The notes beneath the pieces are model-generated. The model searched no databases. It had not been told where the DNA came from and was given only the letters and a program-made list of their open reading frames with translations. A stretch of 64,000 nt of DNA from Halobaculum magnesiiphilum (GTDB lineage Archaea > Halobacteriota > Halobacteria > Halobacteriales > Haloferacaceae), in NCBI RefSeq assembly GCF_019823105.1, contig NZ_CP081960.1, forward strand, positions 310,001-374,000, in the 5' to 3' direction. Below are positions 50,621 through 62,378 of the stretch, piece after piece; position 1 is the first letter of the stretch; each line of letters begins with the position of its first letter. The translations under genes were made by a program, and so were the position numbers.

Positions 50621-51773
50621 GGTGTGGTCGGTCCCGCCCCGGCGACGCTAGCACCGGAGGGAGTGAAGCGACCGGAGGCGCGCAGCGAGTCGCGGCGGTT
50701 CGACCGCGCCGACTCCCGGCTCGGACTGGGACACCAGCGACGAGTTCGCGGTCGCCGAAGCGGTCCTCGAAGCGGTCCCGATGATGTATCACAAAAATAG
50801 TAGGTCGGCGGTCGACGTACAGTCTCGAATGGGGCCGCTCCTCGAGCCTCTCCCTACGGGGCCGATGCTGATCCCACCGCGCCACTCACGGTGCGGATCA
50901 CAACTCGCCGCTATGGGGACAGTCCCACTGGTCCCCCTGGACAACCGGAGCGGACTACCCCCACCGGGGCCGATGCTGGTTGCGGCAGATTGCCCACTCG
51001 TCTGCGGTCGTCACGGGCCGGGTCGACACTCCATCTCGACCCCCCGCGGAAGGCGGTCGCGGACGCCGTCGCTTCGACCCCACTCGGAGGAGTCGCGGCC
51101 GCGGTCGGACTGCGTCGATCGTCGCCGAGCTGGCGCTGTCGATCACACCCCTCGGGCAGAGTGAAACGGTGGCCACTCGACTGGCCTGGCTGTCGAACTT
51201 CTCGGGTTTCCGATATAGGGATCCAGCCCCCACCTGACGCTGTCGCTGTCGCGGTTCGACTCAATCTCAGTGACGCTGAACCACCCCCCTCTCCTCGAGG
51301 CCGACTGCCTGAAGTCCACTCATCGAGTAGCCTCGATCGACTCTCGCTTACACTGGACCCACCCCCCTCTCAGTCGTCATCGTCGACCACACGATCTCCA
51401 TCGGCAGGGCCGAGGTCTCGTTCGCGGTCGACGTCGATCGACCTCCTGCTGTCGCCACTCGACCAACCCCCCAGCCCTCGAAGAGGCCATGAAAGGCAAC
51501 TGGTACAATGAGGGCCCACTGCCCGCTTGGTGGTGTCGACTACTGTCTGGCAGTCTGCCACAGAAGACAGGGCCTTTCGAACTCCGTAACGTCATATAGG
51601 GGGTTATTCAATACGGTCTTTATGTATCCCTCCCCCGCGCTCAAACCCTGCAAAAAAGGGGAGTCAACTGAAGAAATTCTTGAACAAAGTATTCGTACAG
51701 ATTTGAGGGTATCAGTGGCCATAAGGAGGAAATACGTGATAGATTGCGAGGATAATAACTCCATGGTCGATCG
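50621..51773. repeat. Gene-poor region with imperfect dispersed repeats
   Basis: About 1.15 kb without a convincing gene. Repeated words include CGGGGCCGATGCTG (near 50858 and 50966) and ACC(A)CCCCCCTCTC-type motifs at about 51280, 51358 and, as ACCAACCCCCCAGCCCTCGA, near 51462, spaced by roughly 80-100 bp. Frames on both strands are Arg/Ser/Pro-rich. From about 51600 the DNA becomes much A/T-richer. It may be decayed coding sequence or an attachment/regulatory area of the mobile replicon. Confidence 0.4.
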
Positions 51774-51986
51774 CCCTGTCCACACCCCTGTCCGGGACAA
51801 ATTCATACCCCTGTCCACCCATTGCCGTACAGGGATTTTTGATGATTGGATGATTGTAATAACTGAGAGTGTATTTCCGGAGCCGAAATTAGCGGTGGAC
51901 AGGGTGTCGGACAACCCCTTAATCCGGTGCCGTATGGTTATTTTCAGGTTTAACGGACTGCTCGCCCCTGTCCGCTCCCCCTGTCC
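51774..51986. repeat. CCCCTGTCC iteron-like cluster (candidate replication origin)
   Basis: Within 213 bp the 9-mer CCCCTGTCC occurs at 51785-51793, 51808-51816, 51965-51973 and 51978-51986, with a one-base variant (GCCCTGTCC) at 51773-51781 and an inverted copy GGACAGGG at 51897-51904; a weaker inverted copy (GTACAGGG) lies near 51827. Spacings of about 12-23 bp within pairs resemble iterons bound by a replication initiator. The region between is A/T-rich, as for an unwinding element. It is 0.8 kb beyond the stop codon of the giant ATPase-primase gene. Confidence 0.55.
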
Positions 51987-52081
51987 GCGCCCTTTCACCG
52001 CCGGTTGTCCTTACATCATATTTCTGGTAAGTGGAAGTCATACTACCGTAGAATGTCCCACACAAATTTTTCGCTGAACTA

Positions 52082-52784: not shown

Positions 52785-55700
52785 CTAGTCCCGTGGCCCG
52801 TCCGAACCAAGCCTCCTCTTCTTCATCATCCAGCCTGTCGGTGTGAGAGTTGCCCCCACAAGTCGACGCCTCCGTTTTCTATTCAGAGTCATCCGCTTCT
52901 TCTCACAGCCGATCTCCTCAACCAGCTCAGGCCAATCTCCCTGGGGGCGGGGGTCAACACCATTGACTTCACAAAACTCCTCATACGCAGCCCAAGCGTA
53001 TTTCGTTTTGACCGTGGCTTGGTCAGTATCTCGCTCGTCCCAATCCGGCTTTACATCAGTAATGTGATGCTCGGCGAAGGCCTCGAACGACTCCTCTTTG
53101 GTCATCCCGTCGACCAGCAGATCCTCTTCAACTATCTGTTTCCTGATACCGGAGTCAACACCGAATTCCTCCTCGAACGCATCGACGGTCGCGTTCCATT
53201 TCTCGGGGTCGACGATCTCCTCACGGGTCCAGTTGTCGCGATCCTTACGGGTGTGCTCGACTGGCTGGATGTCCTCACTCGAGGCCGTCCCGAGCTCGAT
53301 CGCAGCGGCGTTGAACAGCTTCATCGGCACCTTCGCATCGGTGCTTAATATCCCGGTGTTCTTCTTGATACGAACCCAAGTGTGGAGCTCCTCTTCGTCG
53401 GTGAATGGACCGGCAGGGTCGGAGGGGGGTCGGACCTTGGCCATGCACGCCATGTAGGTGAGCGGATTGTACCCACATTTCCGCTTGTGGTCGTACGCGA
53501 AGAACCGGTCGAGCGGCATGAAGTAGTTCTCCGAATCGCCGACGTGACTGAGCGGATTCGGCCCGCGCTCCTGGATGTCAAGCCCGGTGAGCGCGACGAT
53601 GTTCTGGTCGTAGAACTCGTTGTAGCCGGCGTTGGCTCCGCTCTCCAGGTCTTCGTGTGGGTCACTCGCGAACGACTCCGTGCGCTCGGTCCACTGGCTG
53701 TACGTAGCCGACCGCTGCAGGTCGTCGTAGGCGTCGTGCGCGGTCGGGTGGGTGATGGTGTGGCCCTCGAACAACGGCTCCACACGGAGCGACTCAGCGT
53801 CGCTCTCGTGGTCGCTGTCGGACTCCACCGTCCCGAAGGGCGTGACGTCGCGGTGGATGCTCCCCGTCCCACGCATCGTCACGTGGCGCCCGAGCGTGAG
53901 GTACGCGCCGAGGCCGCTCTTCGCGAGCGACGGGGGGCGGTACTCTGCGAGGTCGACGTCTTCCACGACGGCTTCCCAGCCGGCACCGTCGGCGGTCGCG
54001 AACGCCGTCTTCGCTTCCGCGAAGTCGATGTACTCGCCGATGGGGACCCGCGGGATGCCGTATTCGATGTCCCACTCGACTATCGCCATGAGCCCGTCTT
54101 CATCCAGGCCGGTGCCGGCGTAGTCCATGTGGGGGAACTCCTCGAAGTGCGCTGGGATGTCGCTCTTCGCAGGCTCCTCCTCGGGAAGCCCGCGGACGGT
54201 GACGTCCTCGTCCCCGTCAGTCTCCAGTTCACTCGTGTGGTGCTCCTCGAGGAACGCAGTCACTTGCTGACCGTACTGGTCGGTGAACGCCCGCCGCTCA
54301 CCGATCAGGTCCAGCAACTCAGTCTCGCCGGCCGACAGGCCGTCCGTGAGGGCGCCTGCACGCGCCGAAAGGCGTCGGAGGCCCGACGACCCCACCGAGT
54401 CACGCAGCTCCGCGTCGTCGTCCTCGCGGCGCCACTTCTCCAACAGCGCCGTCAGGTGTGGCAGCGGTGGCGCGACCTCGTACAGCCCTTGCGAGAGGTA
54501 GTCGTCGAGGTCAACTTTCCGGCCAGCGATCCGGGGAATCTCGATGAGGAACGCGCCGATGCCGTTGTCGTCCAACGTCTTCGCGGTCTTGAGCGCCCCT
54601 TTCTCCCCGGGGGCAACACCCTCGAAGTCCAACTCGGCGTTGATCACCGCCCCCTCGTCGGTCGCGAACGGATCCTCGTCTTCGTCGACGTCCACCTCGA
54701 CGATGTCCGAGTCGTCTGCACCGTCGCCGGTGTAGGTGAACGACGCCTGCTCGTTGTCTTGCACGACGTACGCGGTTGGGATGTCGTACTCCTCGATGAT
54801 CTCCAAGAGCCGCTCGACCTTCCGGTCCTTGAACTGCACCGTCACGGGCGACAGGCACGGGATCCCGTGTGCATGGGCGGCGATCGCGTCGGCGATGCCT
54901 TCGGTGATCACGACGGGCACTCCGCGGCGGAGGGTGTGGGTGCCGTAGATGGGCTCGGTACTCGCAATCCCATCGTAGCCGGGGATCTTCTGGTACTTCG
55001 CGTCGGGGTTGAGGTCCCGCGAGTGGGGCTTGCCCTTCTGTACGCGCGACAAGGCGTGAACCGGATTCCCATTCTCGTCGAAGTACGGGAAGACGTAGCG
55101 GCCGCGCCAGCGCGAGCGGAGGAGCGTCTCGGTGTCGAGCTCCCGAACGACACCCCACAGATCGATGTCGCGCTCCTCGTCCCCGTGGATGTCCTCGATG
55201 GCCTCGCGAACGTCACGCGAGTAGACGGTGTCGTCGATGAGGACCTCGTCTTCCTCGTCGGGGACGCGCTCGTTCAACGCGTCTCTGATGGCCGACCAGT
55301 CGATCTGGAACAGCCCGGTCGCGATGAGCTGCTGGGGCGTGTAGTGCGGGGCGAGTTCCTCAAGGCCCGCCTGCTTGCTCGCCGGCGCCCAGCCCACCAG
55401 GGCGGCCGCGACCGTCTCTGCGTCCCACCGCCGGCCGATAGTCGCTGGGATAGCGTTCCGCTCGTCGTTCGAGCCGTTGATCGTGTGGTGGCTGTAGCCG
55501 CCGAACGGCTGTTCGGCTGCCTCGGCGCCGTCGCCGGCGTTTGCGTCGTCCCCTCCAAGGAGGCTCGTGTCGACATCGACGTCCTCCCAGTGAGGCCCGG
55601 TGAAGTAGTCCCCCGCGCTCTCTGGGAGGTACATGAACGGCTCCGCAGTCGTGATGTCCGACGGGCACATCCCACAGTCGGCGGGCTCGTGCCGGTGGTC

Positions 55701-58700
55701 ATTGAAGCACTGGTAGTGCTCGACCAGTACGGTCGGCTCGTCGTGGCCCCACTCGACCGGGAGGTGGAGGACGTCTTCGTCCTCGTCTTCTTCGCCGTCT
55801 TCGCTGCCGTCGCTTGCAGCATCGTCCTCGCCGGCGTCGTCTCCTTCGTCGTCGGGGATGAGCGACTCGGGCCGGGTCACGCCCGGTTGGACGGTGGGCG
55901 GCAGGTCCGACACACTTAGCGGCTCGCCATCCTCGTCCGTCAGTTCAGGCACGTCCCTGACCGGGATCTCGACCTCGACGGACGGATCGGTGGGAGCCAC
56001 ACCCTCCACCGTTTCCAGTTCTTCCTTGTCGACGCCTAGTGTGCTGAGGTAGTTCCACACGATCGTCACGGGCTCGTCCTCGTCGAGCGTCTCGATGGGG
56101 ACGTACTCGGGGTCGTCGTGGGTCGCCTCGTGGATAGCGACACAGTCGGGGCAGAACGGATCGATCACACAATGGTCGCACGACCCTTCCACGACGGAGT
56201 GCTTGTGGCTCCGGTCGTCGTCGTGGCTACACGGTGTCGCGTCGAACCGGGCGACCGCGCGGTCGCGGCCGCAGCCACGGCAGGTCGCCTCGACCGTACA
56301 GAACGGACAGGAGGCGACGTACGTGGAGTGCTCGGGGATCGTCGACGGGTCAGCATCGGTGTCGACGGCCTCGCGGTCGACGTCCGTGCAGGGCGTCCGG
56401 TAGGTCGCATCGATATGATCGAGCAGCCGGTTGTGGTGGACCTTCTCCGTGCTCCGTGAATCAAGCTGTTCGTGGTAGTAGTCGGTCGCGTCCGCGAAGG
56501 CGTCTTTCCAGCCTTCGGGTTCGTCGTCGGGGATGATCCCTGCTTCGGGCCAGTGGCGCGAGAGGTCGACAGTAGTGGGCGCGTCAGTGTCTGACTGGTC
56601 ATTGGAGTCTGACGCTGGCGGGTCCTGCGAGTCGAGAGTCTCGGGGTCAGTCCTTGCACCGTTTGTCTCGGCGTCAGGGGTGGAGAAGTCGTCGTCTGTG
56701 GTCTCAACTTGACCGATCGTGTCTACTGCGGCCTTCTCTCCTTCAATCTCTGCATCGTTTCGCTCGATTTCTCTCGAGCTCCCACTCTTCTCCAGCTCTC
56801 GACCATGTGAATCTACTTCAACTTCATTTACACTGACGCTGCCCGCCGCAACGTCTCGCCCTTCATTGCTCTCCGTGGGCGAATCCTCTTGTCCCTGATC
56901 GGTACGTGGCGGTTCAGTGGGACCCCCACCGATGTCTGGCGCCTCGTCGACACCTCCGTCGTCTTTGCCTCTTCCCGCTCCGTCCGAGTCCTCGTCTTCA
57001 AAGTAGGTGTCCCAATCGATTTGCGGTGTTGAGTTGTCGTGTGGGTCGTTTAGTCTGTAGAATTCTCCTTCCTTGATGAGGACATTCGTCTCTTCCGCCC
57101 GTTCGATTTCTACTTTGGCCTCCTCAAGCGTCAATCCGTGGGCGTTTTTCAGTACCCCGTACAGAAGTCGCTCTTTCAGATACTCATCTTGGTCCACTCT
57201 ACTGTGCGCCCATGTCGAAGTCCATTCTTCTGGAGGATCGCGGGCGGGGAGCCGAAGTTCGGTAATCGGTCGGCCATCGGGCGTCTCGTTCTCGACGACT
57301 TCTAATGTGCCACGGTCAATGGAAGCCTTCACTGCGGCACGTACGCGCGGCTTCACAGCGTCAACACCCGTGAATGGCCCATTGTTGACTGCGGCCCCAT
57401 TGAATCCCATTTCGGGTAAGGTCTCCCCGGGCAAGGCACCCATATGGTCCCAGATTTCCTCCCATCCCTCCCGTTGGATGTACTCCTCGGCGTTTCCGCG
57501 GAGGACCAACTTGACGTGATTCCCACGTGGCGGGGCGAGGAAGAACCCAATATCGGTGTGAATCAGTTGCCCGGCAAGCACAGCATCCTCGATCGCTTGG
57601 TCACGGTTGCTGGTCATCGCTTGGGCGCCTTTGATCGCTTTCTTCAGCGTACTCGCGTCCATCGGCTGTTCGAAGTCTATTCCGTCGCCGTAGCGCTTCC
57701 ACACTTGCTCCCAGAACACGCGACTGAGAGGATCTTTCCCGCCGTAATCGACGGAAGCGGTGTGGTTTCGTTCGATCGACGGGAGGCTCGCGTCCTCGTC
57801 GCGCATCCGCTGGGCGCTGATGAACTTGCGAGAGACGGTGTTGTACAGCCCCTGATGCTCGCTGGTTACTCCCTCGTCGTCGCTCGTCGACGTCCCGCCG
57901 AACCCCCGCAGTATCGACGGCTCGTATGTCTGCGTGAAGGTGTCGTCCCAATACTCCTCGGCGATGAGCGGCCTGTGATCTTCTCCATCGTACAGCCGCG
58001 GCATCGCGTCGGTGGGCTTCTCGATGAGTCCATGATCGGTCGGGACGATGACGATCTCCCAGTCGTCTTCGGTCGGCTCGGTCTCGAATTCGTGCTCAGG
58101 GAGGAACGGCTTCCGGACCCGCTGCCAGTCCTCTTCGAGCTCTTCGATGGAATCGTAGAGTTCTTCGCGACCGTTGAGATAGACCACCCACTCATCCTCG
58201 TACATGTCGTACCGACACCACCGATCAAAGGCGTTGGTCGATGGATCATCCAATTTTTCGCCATCCAGCCTCCCGCGCTCAGTTGCGTCAGCCGACTTCC
58301 CGTTGAAGAGCCGTAACGTCGCCCCGTTCCATTCCCACAGGCTCGAGTTGCCCTTCTCTATCAGAGCGTACTTGTCAGGCTCGTCCTCATCGGAGAGATC
58401 AAGGAACTCGGTGCGGTTGTAGAGGATCGTACTCTCTATCGTATTCCCACTCTCGTCTTCATACACTTCGGTTCGACTTGCCAGCGGTGGGTCTGACAAG
58501 TACCCGTGGAGTCTGTCGGCGTGGTGTTCGCGCGATCGGTTGTTGGCGCGACCGTCGCGGACAAGGAAGAACACCTTCTTGCCCGTGTTGACGCCACGCT
58601 GGAGGTTGTGTAGCGGGCCGGCAGGCTTCGTCAGCGACGCCTCTGCTTCAAGCGTGATGTCTTGGCTGTCGCCCAGTGAGTACGCGAGCTCGAACGTCTC

Positions 58701-61700
58701 CTCCATCTCCTCGATGGAGCGCTTCAACGCACGCGGCGACGACTTGTCGAGATCGCCCGGGAGTTCTCCCTCGGCGTCGCTGATGTCGGTCTTGTGCTGC
58801 TGGGCAAGGATGGAGACACGAAAGCCCGCACGGCTGAACCAGTCGAACCCGTGGGCCAACAGCTCCCTGTGGGTGTCGGTCGTCTCAAAGGAGCCTTCGT
58901 CAGCTGCGAGGATGAACGCTAACCCCTCGTCAGTAAGTGAGACAGCGCCGTCTGTGTTGGCGATCAGGTGATTCTCGTCGTTTTCTTCTCCAGTTAACTC
59001 GCGGACTGTGAGGCTCCCGGGCGGTGCCTCCCCTTCGACTAATTCTCTGGCGTCGACGGCGACGTCGTCGGTGCCGTCAGTGTGGCCACTGTCTTCAGCA
59101 ACTACATAGCGGTTGAAGTGAGCCGTGTCGACCGCAAGCCCGTTCGGATAGTCTTGGATGTCTCGACCAGTTCGTTCCTCGAATACCTCGGTAACGCGAC
59201 CGAGTGCGACTGCCTCCCGGTTTCGTTCTAACTGTACCTCGCGGATGGACTGGAGGAACTGTCTCTGGGTGGCCTCGTCGTTCCCCAAGTTGTGGATCAA
59301 CATCGCCGTCTCGTTGATGTTCGATTCTAGGGGAGGGACGCCGTGTGTATCCAGAGACTCACGGATGCGGTCTTTGGATTCGTCACGTGTGCGGACGGGT
59401 GGGTAATCGGCGAACGTGTTCACTGGCATTGGTGGGGAGAGGTACTCCTCGTGGTCGTCCTGTAGGAGTACGCGCGTGAACATCACGTAGCGCGGGATCT
59501 CCTCGATATCGACGTGGTCGACCTCTTCACCGAATCGCTCTGCAAGCAGGCGAGCGTCCTTCGGGAGGCCGATCCCGAACGTCGCCATCGACCGGCTGTT
59601 TGCGAACATCTGGTCTTGCGTGCTGTCGCTGATTTGTCCGGGGTTCTGGTTGGCCAACCCGACACCCATCTTCTTCGACCGCGCCTTCGACAGCATGGCC
59701 TCGACGTCCATCTCCTCGCTTTCGACCCAGTCGAACTCGTCGATGAACGTGAAGAATGGCTCCCGGAGCTTCTCTTCCTCGCGCCGGGCCTGAATCGCCG
59801 ACCACACCCGCCGCATCACCGCGGTGGAGACGACGCGCTTCAGGTCGTCCGAGTCGATGGGGATCTTGACGAGGATGATCTTCCCGTCCTCGACGGCCTC
59901 AGTGATGTTGACCGTCCCCTCGCGGTGGGCAACGATCCCGCGGGCGAGCGGATCCTCGACCCACGACTGGATACGACGAACGACGGCGTCGACCTCTTCG
60001 TCGTCCATCTGGGCGATCTTCTCGGTGTAGGAGTGGATGTTCAACATCGCCTCCTTGTTGTCCTCGTCGAGGTCCTCACGCTCCATCAGCCGCTGGCCCT
60101 CGCGGGCGATCATGTCGGCGAACGCCCGGCGAGACGGCTTGGACATGATGACATGGTACATGTCCGTGAGGGTGAACGGCTTTGGCGAGCGGATCATCGC
60201 ACGGGCGATGTTGGTGGTGATCCCCTCCATCTTCGGCCCCCAGTAGTCACCGCCCTTCAGGATGGCCGTGAGGTCGTCGACGATCGAAGAGACCTCCTTG
60301 TTGTACGCGACCGTCCCAGGCTCCTTCGACGCCTCGAGGAAGTTGATCCCGACCACTTGGTCGAAGTCCTCGGATGCCGGCTCGATCCACACGATATCGT
60401 CCATCCGATGCTCGGGCAGCTCGTTGATCAGTTCGTCGACGGTGTCGCCCTTCGGGTCGATGTAACAGAATCCGTAGCCCTTCCGTGCGATCTGGTTGAG
60501 GATGTTCTTCTGGGCTGTGGACTTCCCCATCCCCGTCATGCCGAACATCGTCAGGTGGCGGAACCACGAGTCTTTCTCGATGCCGATCTCGTGGAAGCCG
60601 ACGCGGTTGTCCTTCAGATACCCAAGCCAGATGGGCGAGTCGGGGTGGTCCTCGTGGATGTCGAACAGCTCCTGCTTGACGTCCTTGCCCATGTAGACCT
60701 CGCCGTCTTCATCGTGGACCTTCACCTCGTAGGCGCGGTCTTCCTTGGTGTGTGGATCGAAACACCACTCGCGTTCGACGCTGACGGGCGTGATCGAAGT
60801 TTGCTCCATCTCCCGCGCCGGCGCCGGGAGGTTGTCGGCGGGCCCCTGGTACGGGCCGTCGGGGTCGTTCCGACGCTCGTACTCCTGCTGTGCTTCCAGC
60901 ATCTTGCTGAAGAACACCGCCTGCTCGTCCGAACTCGCCTCGGCTCGGAGGTCTTCGACAGTCAGGTCTTCAGAAGTGTACCTATCGTACAGCTTCAGGA
61001 ACGCTTCGCGCTGCGGCCCATCGAATTGATTCGCCGGCTCTTCGACCTTCCCTTGGAAGGAGGCGTCACCGTACACGTGCTTGCTGGCGCCGTCCTCCCC
61101 CCATTCTTCGGGGTCGGGGAGAGATTCGTCGACCTCACCCTCGAGGGGTTTCGCGTCGTCGGAAGCCGGCTCGGTCGGGTTGCCGGAGGGTAATTCCGTC
61201 GGGGTGGCAGACAGCGCCCCTTTCGGCGACGTGGGCCCGACGTCGTACTCCTCGAACGGAAGCGAGTCGATTGCTTTCACCTTCCGCGGAGCGACACCAG
61301 GCGCTCGCGCACCGAGTCCACGGCGGGTGAACTGGATGTTGGGCGTGCCCACCTCGTCGTTCGGCAGGTGGGCAAGACCGGCGATCTCCGGTGGCGTGAG
61401 CGGGAAGTTGGGTGCGTCGTCTTTTGGTCGGCCCGGCTCTGGGTCCCACTCCCGTCCGACGCCTTTCTTCAGCAACGATTTCAGTGAACGACCGCGAGAG
61501 GCGACATCGCGGAACTGTTGGTCGTAATCGGGGTTATGGTACGTGCTGACGTAGGCGTTCCCAATCTGCGCGGCGGATTCTGTGACGAACTTCTCCGATT
61601 CACCAAACACGAAGTAGCGGACGTTTACGTAGAACGCCCGCTCGTTTTCCATGTTGTCGATGGCTTCGGCCGTCCGGAGTTCTTTCTCGGTCGGGTCATC

Positions 61701-62378
61701 GATATGTGGGCTCCACCAACTGTGGACGAAGTTCCCCTGTTTGAGATGCCGAGAGACTTTTTGCGCATTCCGCCACCCGAGTCGACGACTCCGCCAATCT
61801 TCAGCCGGTGTGAACACGATTTGAGCGATGGCTGATGTCCCACTCCGTCCGATCAATGCGGAGGTGATATTCCGGTAAGCTGCCTTCCCTTGGGGGAATC
61901 GGCCGTGTGCCTCCTCACCAATCCCCTTAATTGGGTGGTAGATATTCCGGTCAAGCGTTAGGTAGCCACCGCTCACATAATCACCCGGCGCAAACGATGG
62001 GAATCCCTTGCTCGCGCGCTCAATATTTATTTTAGGGTAGTTCGCCGAGAGCATCTCACGGTGTTGATTGTACCAGTGGTCATTGGGAAGCCCCCAAACG
62101 AACTTCACGTGGCCTTCGTCGAACCAGATTTCAAATGAAAACGGGCCCGGAACTTCTTGCCGACCAAGAAGGTTCAATAGGCGGCTTTGAGAGACGCCGC
62201 CTCTGAGGAACGTCTTAATTACTTCTGTCCCATATTCTTGGCCAGGACCTTCCTTGTACGGACGTGTCTGTACCAAAATGTTCTGCTGGTGGTTGAGCCG
62301 ATTTTGCAGTGTACGAAAGAGTTCCCTGCTAATCTCCAGAGACTGGTAGCCGCCGGTGTTGAGAAACGGAATCTTCAT
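52785..62378 (-). CDS. Giant fusion: conjugation-type ATPase + zinc/Toprim primase module (3197 aa)
   Basis: One uninterrupted frame. Residues about 1-600 precede the motor and resemble the N-terminal part of haloarchaeal transfer ATPases. The HerA/VirB4/TraD-like ATPase has Walker A GMTGMGKST at 613-621, IDPKGDT near 640, Walker B FFTFIDE at 875-881 and a Gln/Asn sensor segment (LANQNPGQ) near 908-915. Residues about 1000-1790 are unassigned. An acidic linker (about 1800-1935) leads to a Cys-rich zinc region near 2020-2070 (CPFC, CRGCGR, CDHC, CPDC), a second acidic linker (about 2170-2205), a DnaG-like core (RYVFPYFDENGNP near 2430) and a Toprim segment with Glu in VITEGIADA near 2488 and an Asp-containing VQDNEQ near 2535. 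The C-terminus (about 3120-3197) resembles the winged-helix end of phage-type primases. No second Walker A was seen. It would pump or translocate DNA and prime its replication in one polypeptide. Confidence 0.85.
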   Translation of the reverse strand: MKIPFLNTGGYQSLEISRELFRTLQNRLNHQQNILVQTRPYKEGPGQEYGTEVIKTFLRGGVSQSRLLNLLGRQEVPGPFSFEIWFDEGHVKFVWGLPNDHWYNQHREMLSANYPKINIERASKGFPSFAPGDYVSGGYLTLDRNIYHPIKGIGEEAHGRFPQGKAAYRNITSALIGRSGTSAIAQIVFTPAEDWRSRRLGWRNAQKVSRHLKQGNFVHSWWSPHIDDPTEKELRTAEAIDNMENERAFYVNVRYFVFGESEKFVTESAAQIGNAYVSTYHNPDYDQQFRDVASRGRSLKSLLKKGVGREWDPEPGRPKDDAPNFPLTPPEIAGLAHLPNDEVGTPNIQFTRRGLGARAPGVAPRKVKAIDSLPFEEYDVGPTSPKGALSATPTELPSGNPTEPASDDAKPLEGEVDESLPDPEEWGEDGASKHVYGDASFQGKVEEPANQFDGPQREAFLKLYDRYTSEDLTVEDLRAEASSDEQAVFFSKMLEAQQEYERRNDPDGPYQGPADNLPAPAREMEQTSITPVSVEREWCFDPHTKEDRAYEVKVHDEDGEVYMGKDVKQELFDIHEDHPDSPIWLGYLKDNRVGFHEIGIEKDSWFRHLTMFGMTGMGKSTAQKNILNQIARKGYGFCYIDPKGDTVDELINELPEHRMDDIVWIEPASEDFDQVVGINFLEASKEPGTVAYNKEVSSIVDDLTAILKGGDYWGPKMEGITTNIARAMIRSPKPFTLTDMYHVIMSKPSRRAFADMIAREGQRLMEREDLDEDNKEAMLNIHSYTEKIAQMDDEEVDAVVRRIQSWVEDPLARGIVAHREGTVNITEAVEDGKIILVKIPIDSDDLKRVVSTAVMRRVWSAIQARREEEKLREPFFTFIDEFDWVESEEMDVEAMLSKARSKKMGVGLANQNPGQISDSTQDQMFANSRSMATFGIGLPKDARLLAERFGEEVDHVDIEEIPRYVMFTRVLLQDDHEEYLSPPMPVNTFADYPPVRTRDESKDRIRESLDTHGVPPLESNINETAMLIHNLGNDEATQRQFLQSIREVQLERNREAVALGRVTEVFEERTGRDIQDYPNGLAVDTAHFNRYVVAEDSGHTDGTDDVAVDARELVEGEAPPGSLTVRELTGEENDENHLIANTDGAVSLTDEGLAFILAADEGSFETTDTHRELLAHGFDWFSRAGFRVSILAQQHKTDISDAEGELPGDLDKSSPRALKRSIEEMEETFELAYSLGDSQDITLEAEASLTKPAGPLHNLQRGVNTGKKVFFLVRDGRANNRSREHHADRLHGYLSDPPLASRTEVYEDESGNTIESTILYNRTEFLDLSDEDEPDKYALIEKGNSSLWEWNGATLRLFNGKSADATERGRLDGEKLDDPSTNAFDRWCRYDMYEDEWVVYLNGREELYDSIEELEEDWQRVRKPFLPEHEFETEPTEDDWEIVIVPTDHGLIEKPTDAMPRLYDGEDHRPLIAEEYWDDTFTQTYEPSILRGFGGTSTSDDEGVTSEHQGLYNTVSRKFISAQRMRDEDASLPSIERNHTASVDYGGKDPLSRVFWEQVWKRYGDGIDFEQPMDASTLKKAIKGAQAMTSNRDQAIEDAVLAGQLIHTDIGFFLAPPRGNHVKLVLRGNAEEYIQREGWEEIWDHMGALPGETLPEMGFNGAAVNNGPFTGVDAVKPRVRAAVKASIDRGTLEVVENETPDGRPITELRLPARDPPEEWTSTWAHSRVDQDEYLKERLLYGVLKNAHGLTLEEAKVEIERAEETNVLIKEGEFYRLNDPHDNSTPQIDWDTYFEDEDSDGAGRGKDDGGVDEAPDIGGGPTEPPRTDQGQEDSPTESNEGRDVAAGSVSVNEVEVDSHGRELEKSGSSREIERNDAEIEGEKAAVDTIGQVETTDDDFSTPDAETNGARTDPETLDSQDPPASDSNDQSDTDAPTTVDLSRHWPEAGIIPDDEPEGWKDAFADATDYYHEQLDSRSTEKVHHNRLLDHIDATYRTPCTDVDREAVDTDADPSTIPEHSTYVASCPFCTVEATCRGCGRDRAVARFDATPCSHDDDRSHKHSVVEGSCDHCVIDPFCPDCVAIHEATHDDPEYVPIETLDEDEPVTIVWNYLSTLGVDKEELETVEGVAPTDPSVEVEIPVRDVPELTDEDGEPLSVSDLPPTVQPGVTRPESLIPDDEGDDAGEDDAASDGSEDGEEDEDEDVLHLPVEWGHDEPTVLVEHYQCFNDHRHEPADCGMCPSDITTAEPFMYLPESAGDYFTGPHWEDVDVDTSLLGGDDANAGDGAEAAEQPFGGYSHHTINGSNDERNAIPATIGRRWDAETVAAALVGWAPASKQAGLEELAPHYTPQQLIATGLFQIDWSAIRDALNERVPDEEDEVLIDDTVYSRDVREAIEDIHGDEERDIDLWGVVRELDTETLLRSRWRGRYVFPYFDENGNPVHALSRVQKGKPHSRDLNPDAKYQKIPGYDGIASTEPIYGTHTLRRGVPVVITEGIADAIAAHAHGIPCLSPVTVQFKDRKVERLLEIIEEYDIPTAYVVQDNEQASFTYTGDGADDSDIVEVDVDEDEDPFATDEGAVINAELDFEGVAPGEKGALKTAKTLDDNGIGAFLIEIPRIAGRKVDLDDYLSQGLYEVAPPLPHLTALLEKWRREDDDAELRDSVGSSGLRRLSARAGALTDGLSAGETELLDLIGERRAFTDQYGQQVTAFLEEHHTSELETDGDEDVTVRGLPEEEPAKSDIPAHFEEFPHMDYAGTGLDEDGLMAIVEWDIEYGIPRVPIGEYIDFAEAKTAFATADGAGWEAVVEDVDLAEYRPPSLAKSGLGAYLTLGRHVTMRGTGSIHRDVTPFGTVESDSDHESDAESLRVEPLFEGHTITHPTAHDAYDDLQRSATYSQWTERTESFASDPHEDLESGANAGYNEFYDQNIVALTGLDIQERGPNPLSHVGDSENYFMPLDRFFAYDHKRKCGYNPLTYMACMAKVRPPSDPAGPFTDEEELHTWVRIKKNTGILSTDAKVPMKLFNAAAIELGTASSEDIQPVEHTRKDRDNWTREEIVDPEKWNATVDAFEEEFGVDSGIRKQIVEEDLLVDGMTKEESFEAFAEHHITDVKPDWDERDTDQATVKTKYAWAAYEEFCEVNGVDPRPQGDWPELVEEIGCEKKRMTLNRKRRRRLVGATLTPTGWMMKKRRLGSDGPRD

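Follow-up and report, generated by a model that had tools for sequence, protein, structure and literature searches.

Can one archaeal gene join a DNA-transfer ATPase to a primase, and what would such a protein do? The question is raised by a reading frame at 52785-62378 (minus strand) of the window, the 64,000-nucleotide stretch of DNA analyzed here, which covers positions 310001-374000 of a 487 kb contig in a genome of 3.73 Mb (99.89% complete, 4 contigs). A sequence-only reading had proposed that a single 3197-residue protein combines the two modules. The frame was indeed uninterrupted, ATG-started and 3197 codons long, and colinear full-length homologues bore out the joining of ATPase and primase. 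The long antisense frames (845 aa and 559 aa) most probably just shadow the GC-rich coding strand.

The fused gene and its homologues

A colinear, intact gene of 3211 aa, annotated merely as hypothetical protein, was found in the finished Halobaculum plasmid NZ_CP119991. Its product and the window protein were 54% identical across the first 1800 residues; for the last 1290 the figure was 39%. The sequence-only reading had proposed a survey for the same fusion in haloarchaea and had warned that the homologues could be two genes and the frame artefactual. Of 391 haloarchaeal genomes sampled, seven, representing five genera and two families, contained a total of eight intact fused loci, none shorter than 3114 aa. 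These frames of 3114-3389 aa belonged to the window, G222, G210, G329, G248, G111 and G173 (two copies), and each had the same domain order of N-terminal domain, ATPase, 1145-1446 domain and primase. The homologues were thus single frames, and full-length copies in finished plasmids and other genomes ruled out an assembly artefact. Judged from the coding sequences of close fused pairs, both halves are under purifying selection, with dN/dS of about 0.09-0.15 in the ATPase and primase halves alike. Since full-length colinear homologues exist elsewhere and dN/dS is low, the fusion is beyond chance. That the covalent linkage is kept in other haloarchaeal genera suggests that pumping and copying of plasmid DNA are physically linked.

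The ATPase tree contained a branch, with support of 99, that separated all fused proteins and their primase-less relatives from all unfused ones. The fused proteins formed two groups in the primase tree, where a single origin of the fusion was not rejected (AU p 0.0985), and two primases classed as "stand-alone", from H. rubrum and H. gibbonsii, nested within the fused groups. The primase was lost in the relatives G293, G147 and G283 and the ATPase in H. rubrum; the fusion is therefore dispensable in some lineages. A stretch of 71 residues from the coupling ATPase (77% identity) survives directly before the primase gene of Halobaculum rubrum (L001, 13529-13740). It is the scar left when an internal part of the fused gene was deleted and the frame changed. 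The whole family might be a decaying remnant, a once-useful fusion drifting apart in mobile-element graveyards, as the reduced H. rubrum ATPase and the incomplete copies of H. litoreum, G293 and pHLAC01 would suggest. However, the window copy is complete, eight frames are intact, catalytic residues are kept and close fused pairs show low dN/dS, which makes general decay highly improbable.

Domains of the giant protein

Walker motifs, profile and fold all indicated a VirD4/TrwB-like coupling-protein ATPase at residues 557-1090 (59109..60710, minus strand). HerA/VirB4/TraD-type Walker motifs had been noticed at residues 613-621 and 875-881, and our analysis agreed: Walker A was GMTGMGKS (residues 613-620) and Walker B was PFFTFIDEF with D880/E881; both motifs (DE 880-881 for Walker B) are kept in each of the 30 members aligned. 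The predicted ATPase structure (mean pLDDT 80) had a TrwB-like fold, with TrwB as the top Foldseek match (E 7.6e-12), and carried a helical all-alpha-type insertion between the Walker motifs (helices at 130-257 of the model). Rows from the plasmid database were left out of the input to structure prediction. In VIA-align the model gave Z 27.4 against VirB4 and Z 26.5 against TrwB (352 residues), effectively a tie, and fold comparison does not separate VirB4 from TrwB for this ATPase. The window protein scored 20.3 bits against PF10412 (cut-off 20.5), was also under the cut-offs of PF12696 and PF02534, and exceeded that of the DUF87/HerA profile (25.7 bits, cut-off 23.2). No transmembrane segment was predicted in the ATPase protein.

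Two other identities were tried and rejected. Profile comparison of the N-terminal, ATPase and middle domains with haloarchaeal VirB4-like proteins gave a weak match around Walker B only, and a VirB4 identity was further disfavoured by the presence of both ATPases side by side in conjugation clusters. The match to the NCBIfam CedD equivalog was 29.1 bits against a cut-off of 600 bits. Sequence and modelled structure support the assignment of residues ~557-1090 as a VirB4/VirD4-class DNA-transfer ATPase of the coupling-protein type.

PHROG_5156 and Bacillus phage G gp156 were distant relatives. The protein could therefore be pictured as a motor that packages DNA for export in virus-like form or in plasmid vesicles, by analogy with ORF25 of pR1SE, for which similarity to VirB4, to TrwB and to packaging ATPases has been predicted (PMC10818511); it belongs to the same ATPase superfamily, and vesicles are on record as disseminating haloarchaeal plasmids (PMC10818511). 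In contrast, two IMG/VR scans, able to detect close relatives only, returned no relatives of either half and argued against a viral origin, the primase half had no phage record, the full-length relatives were located on 27-600 kb contigs or plasmids, and capsid or vesicle genes were not identified nearby. We consider a packaging role very unlikely.

The N-terminal domain (residues 1-380; 61239..62378, minus strand) was homologous to a separate gene of ~380-430 aa, found just upstream of the ATPase gene in unfused systems, so the giant protein is a three-part fusion. The separate gene weakly matched PHROG_5156, and a PDB profile search with the domain gave no match.

A middle region of 800 residues had been left unassigned in the sequence-only reading. 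This no longer applies to residues 1145-1446 (58041..58946, minus strand), a C-terminal domain of ordinary coupling proteins; because the unfused orthologues contain its equivalents, much of the middle is normal coupling-protein sequence. Residues 1480-1840 (56859..57941, minus strand) were conserved in most fused proteins and undetected in unfused ones. They run into an acidic linker of low hydrophobicity at residues 1797-2010 (56349..56990, minus strand; 28% D+E, 15% ILMVFYW).

The 1145-1446 domain contained the invariant residues H1170, Q1193, D1201 and E1244-x-E1246, and its predicted structure had an alpha/beta topology. Pfam and PDB profile searches with it gave nothing reliable, and Replic_Relax (PF13814) was absent wherever it was searched for, a result that is uninformative as the control was equally silent. 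From the order of strands and helices in the model and the D...ExE pattern, we hypothesize that it is possibly a PD-(D/E)XK-like nuclease. One polypeptide might then act as coupling protein, relaxosome nuclease and conjugative primase, with the middle domain cutting or trimming DNA via D...ExE, the motor pumping the strand and the primase starting the complement, which would allow relaxase-free plasmid transfer and restoration in archaea. To our knowledge, no relaxase has been recognised in archaea. This three-function arrangement is quite unlikely.

The DnaG-like core and Toprim segment of the sequence-only reading were borne out by profile, fold and conserved acids at residues 2316-2640 (54459..55433, minus strand; N-subdomain and TOPRIM). 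The TOPRIM motifs were E2493-G-x-x-D2497, D2541-x-E2543 and DLDDY from D2623, the first of which was invariant in all 25 family sequences. That this region might fail to match primases had been raised as a doubt, and profile searches did match primases. A profile built from the C-terminal part of the family retrieved structures of the DnaG RNA-polymerase domain from the PDB, with B. subtilis DnaG among them (E 2e-15). Of 25 family members, 22 matched DNAG_N (PF08275), at best with 5e-9, although the window copy fell below threshold, and PHROG DNA-primase families matched the window protein at ~1e-8. The predicted structure of the whole primase part was poor (mean pLDDT 60). The model of the core best matched DnaG (Foldseek E ~1e-6; VIA Z 13.7 to 5guj), with TOPRIM-only proteins scoring lower (Z below 10). 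Alignments and models thus support residues ~2316-2640 as a DnaG-type primase core with intact catalytic acids.

Upstream of the core lies a Cys-rich, putative zinc-binding region (residues 2024-2079; 56142..56309, minus strand), followed by three further cysteines at residues 2224-2238. This cluster was conserved only in a Halobaculum-type subgroup, namely the window, G222, G210, H. rubrum and H. gibbonsii, and was missing in the G329 group. The Cys-rich, putative zinc knuckles proposed earlier are thus present in the window copy but are not a family-wide feature, several fused relatives lacking them, and the suggested spacing of 1500 residues was too long: the region begins ~1140 residues after Walker B and ~1400 after Walker A. 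The phage-primase-like C-terminus corresponded to a conserved domain of ~150 aa at residues 2910-3077 (53148..53651, minus strand) that is common to stand-alone haloarchaeal primases; one relative matched PriCT_2.

Stand-alone haloarchaeal DnaG-like primases of 1100-1800 aa, annotated as hypothetical, were found at L009 (NZ_CP100453.1, 3486-7226), L011 (4304-9544), L053, L054 and L057, several of them on small plasmids of 10-57 kb. These proteins, some of which end in a helix-turn-helix, resemble plasmid replication proteins that have gone unrecognised.

Genomic context and proposed role

Unfused orthologues of ~1050 aa were clustered with a VirB4-like gene, membrane proteins and a pilin. Such orthologues are common: the ATPase query matched in 125 of the 391 genomes, although the weaker matches may be other HerA-like ATPases. 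In G173, a fused gene was located directly downstream, and on the same strand, of two pilin-like genes, a five-TM (VirB6) gene, a VirB3-like and a VirB4-like gene, and no other coupling protein of this ATPase family was found in that genome. From the family and this T4SS-adjacent gene, we infer a role in transfer. The pilin-like genes of the operon (L102, G173:C4:176000-195999) were of the DUF7289 type, and VirB3 and VirB4 were separate there and one protein elsewhere. The 106 kb contig C5 of G210 (L044, L105) carried the fused gene plus a complete unfused VirB4/N/coupling-protein cluster.

No VirB4-like gene was detected with two different VirB4 queries in the genomes of the window, G222, G248 and G111. 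These copies either use a channel from another replicon, have one too divergent to see, or serve another role. For the earlier suggestion that the fusion would suit single-strand conjugation, this means that conjugation by the window's own replicon is at most a possibility, neither query having found a VirB4 in its near-complete genome.

The copies without VirB4 fit a different role, in plasmid replication or segregation: the ATPase, descended from a coupling protein, would now move or position plasmid DNA within the cell, with the primase working in vertical replication of the plasmid. Stand-alone relatives of the primase are large, lie on 10-57 kb plasmids and resemble replication proteins, and the fused genes share their replicons with Orc1/Cdc6 genes, 1-12 kb away in G283, G210 and G248. 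However, the window's replicon, G222, G173 and G293 had Orc1/Cdc6 at distances of 33-165 kb (82 kb on the window's own 487 kb contig), which leaves no consistent replication operon, and a replication-origin-linked operon was rejected on the range of 1-165 kb. The protein still has the coupling-protein N-terminal and middle domains, and the fused gene of G173 lies within a T4SS locus. A replication or segregation factor is therefore an unlikely reading.

The best explanation, to which we give a probability of about 0.6, is an archaeal type IV coupling protein of the VirD4/TrwB class, complete with its N-terminal domain, fused via an acidic linker to a DnaG-type primase on large haloarchaeal plasmids. 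A hexameric ATPase would thread plasmid DNA through a T4SS-like channel, which is encoded in cis in G173 and would be in trans or absent elsewhere. The tethered primase would prime the single strand leaving or entering the motor, so that the complementary strand could be made at once. In bacteria the complementary strand is synthesised in the recipient, and because of this a primase fused on the donor side would be odd and of no help. A motor that brings DNA in, as in the crenarchaeal Ced system, would make immediate sense as the partner of a primase.

Other genes around the locus were also inspected. At 50891-52077 of the window, beside the 3' end of the giant gene, the plus strand has two ORFs that overlap (206 and 189 aa); neither had a Pfam match, and one was like an equivalently placed ORF of H. 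rubrum. A GmrSD-type restriction endonuclease is encoded ~7 kb past the right end of the window (L042, 6955-8874), among genes that look like a defence island.

Comparison with known systems

In the open-access literature, no paper was found that described a fusion of coupling ATPase and primase. Both modules are of known kinds; their covalent union is undescribed in the open-access papers searched. Transfer of archaeal plasmids as dsDNA has been suggested (PMC6563490), whereas transfer as ssDNA has been argued elsewhere (PMC9905601). Covalent linkage of a primase to an ATPase of the transfer type suggests an intermediate that is single-stranded at the motor; the fusion also provides a defined protein with which the question of ssDNA versus dsDNA in archaeal plasmid movement can be tested.

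The ATPase half shares with type IV coupling proteins (VirD4, TrwB of R388, TraD/TraG) the RecA-like motor, Walker A/B, the helical insertion and, in its orthologues, the position next to VirB4. It differs in having no predicted TM segment, extra N-terminal and 1145-1446 domains and a C-terminal primase. CedB and CedD of the crenarchaeal Ced system, which act in the importing cell, are likewise FtsK/HerA superfamily ATPases of archaeal DNA transfer, and the NCBIfam CedD match was weak; they import chromosomal DNA and have no primase (PMC11868833).

With bacterial DnaG and the DnaG-type primases of plasmids and phages, the primase half shares DNAG_N, the TOPRIM motifs E-G-x-x-D and D-x-(D/E), DLDDY and the fold. 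In the haloarchaeal family, however, the second TOPRIM acid is often E or shifted, the zinc domain is not universal, a helicase match was not found, and the primase is fused to a DNA pump. A primase tied to plasmid transfer is also seen in RP4 TraC and ColIb Sog, which are conjugative primases, and in RSF1010 MobA-RepB, a relaxase-primase fusion. Whereas those primases are separate or joined to a relaxase, the haloarchaeal one is fused to the coupling ATPase.
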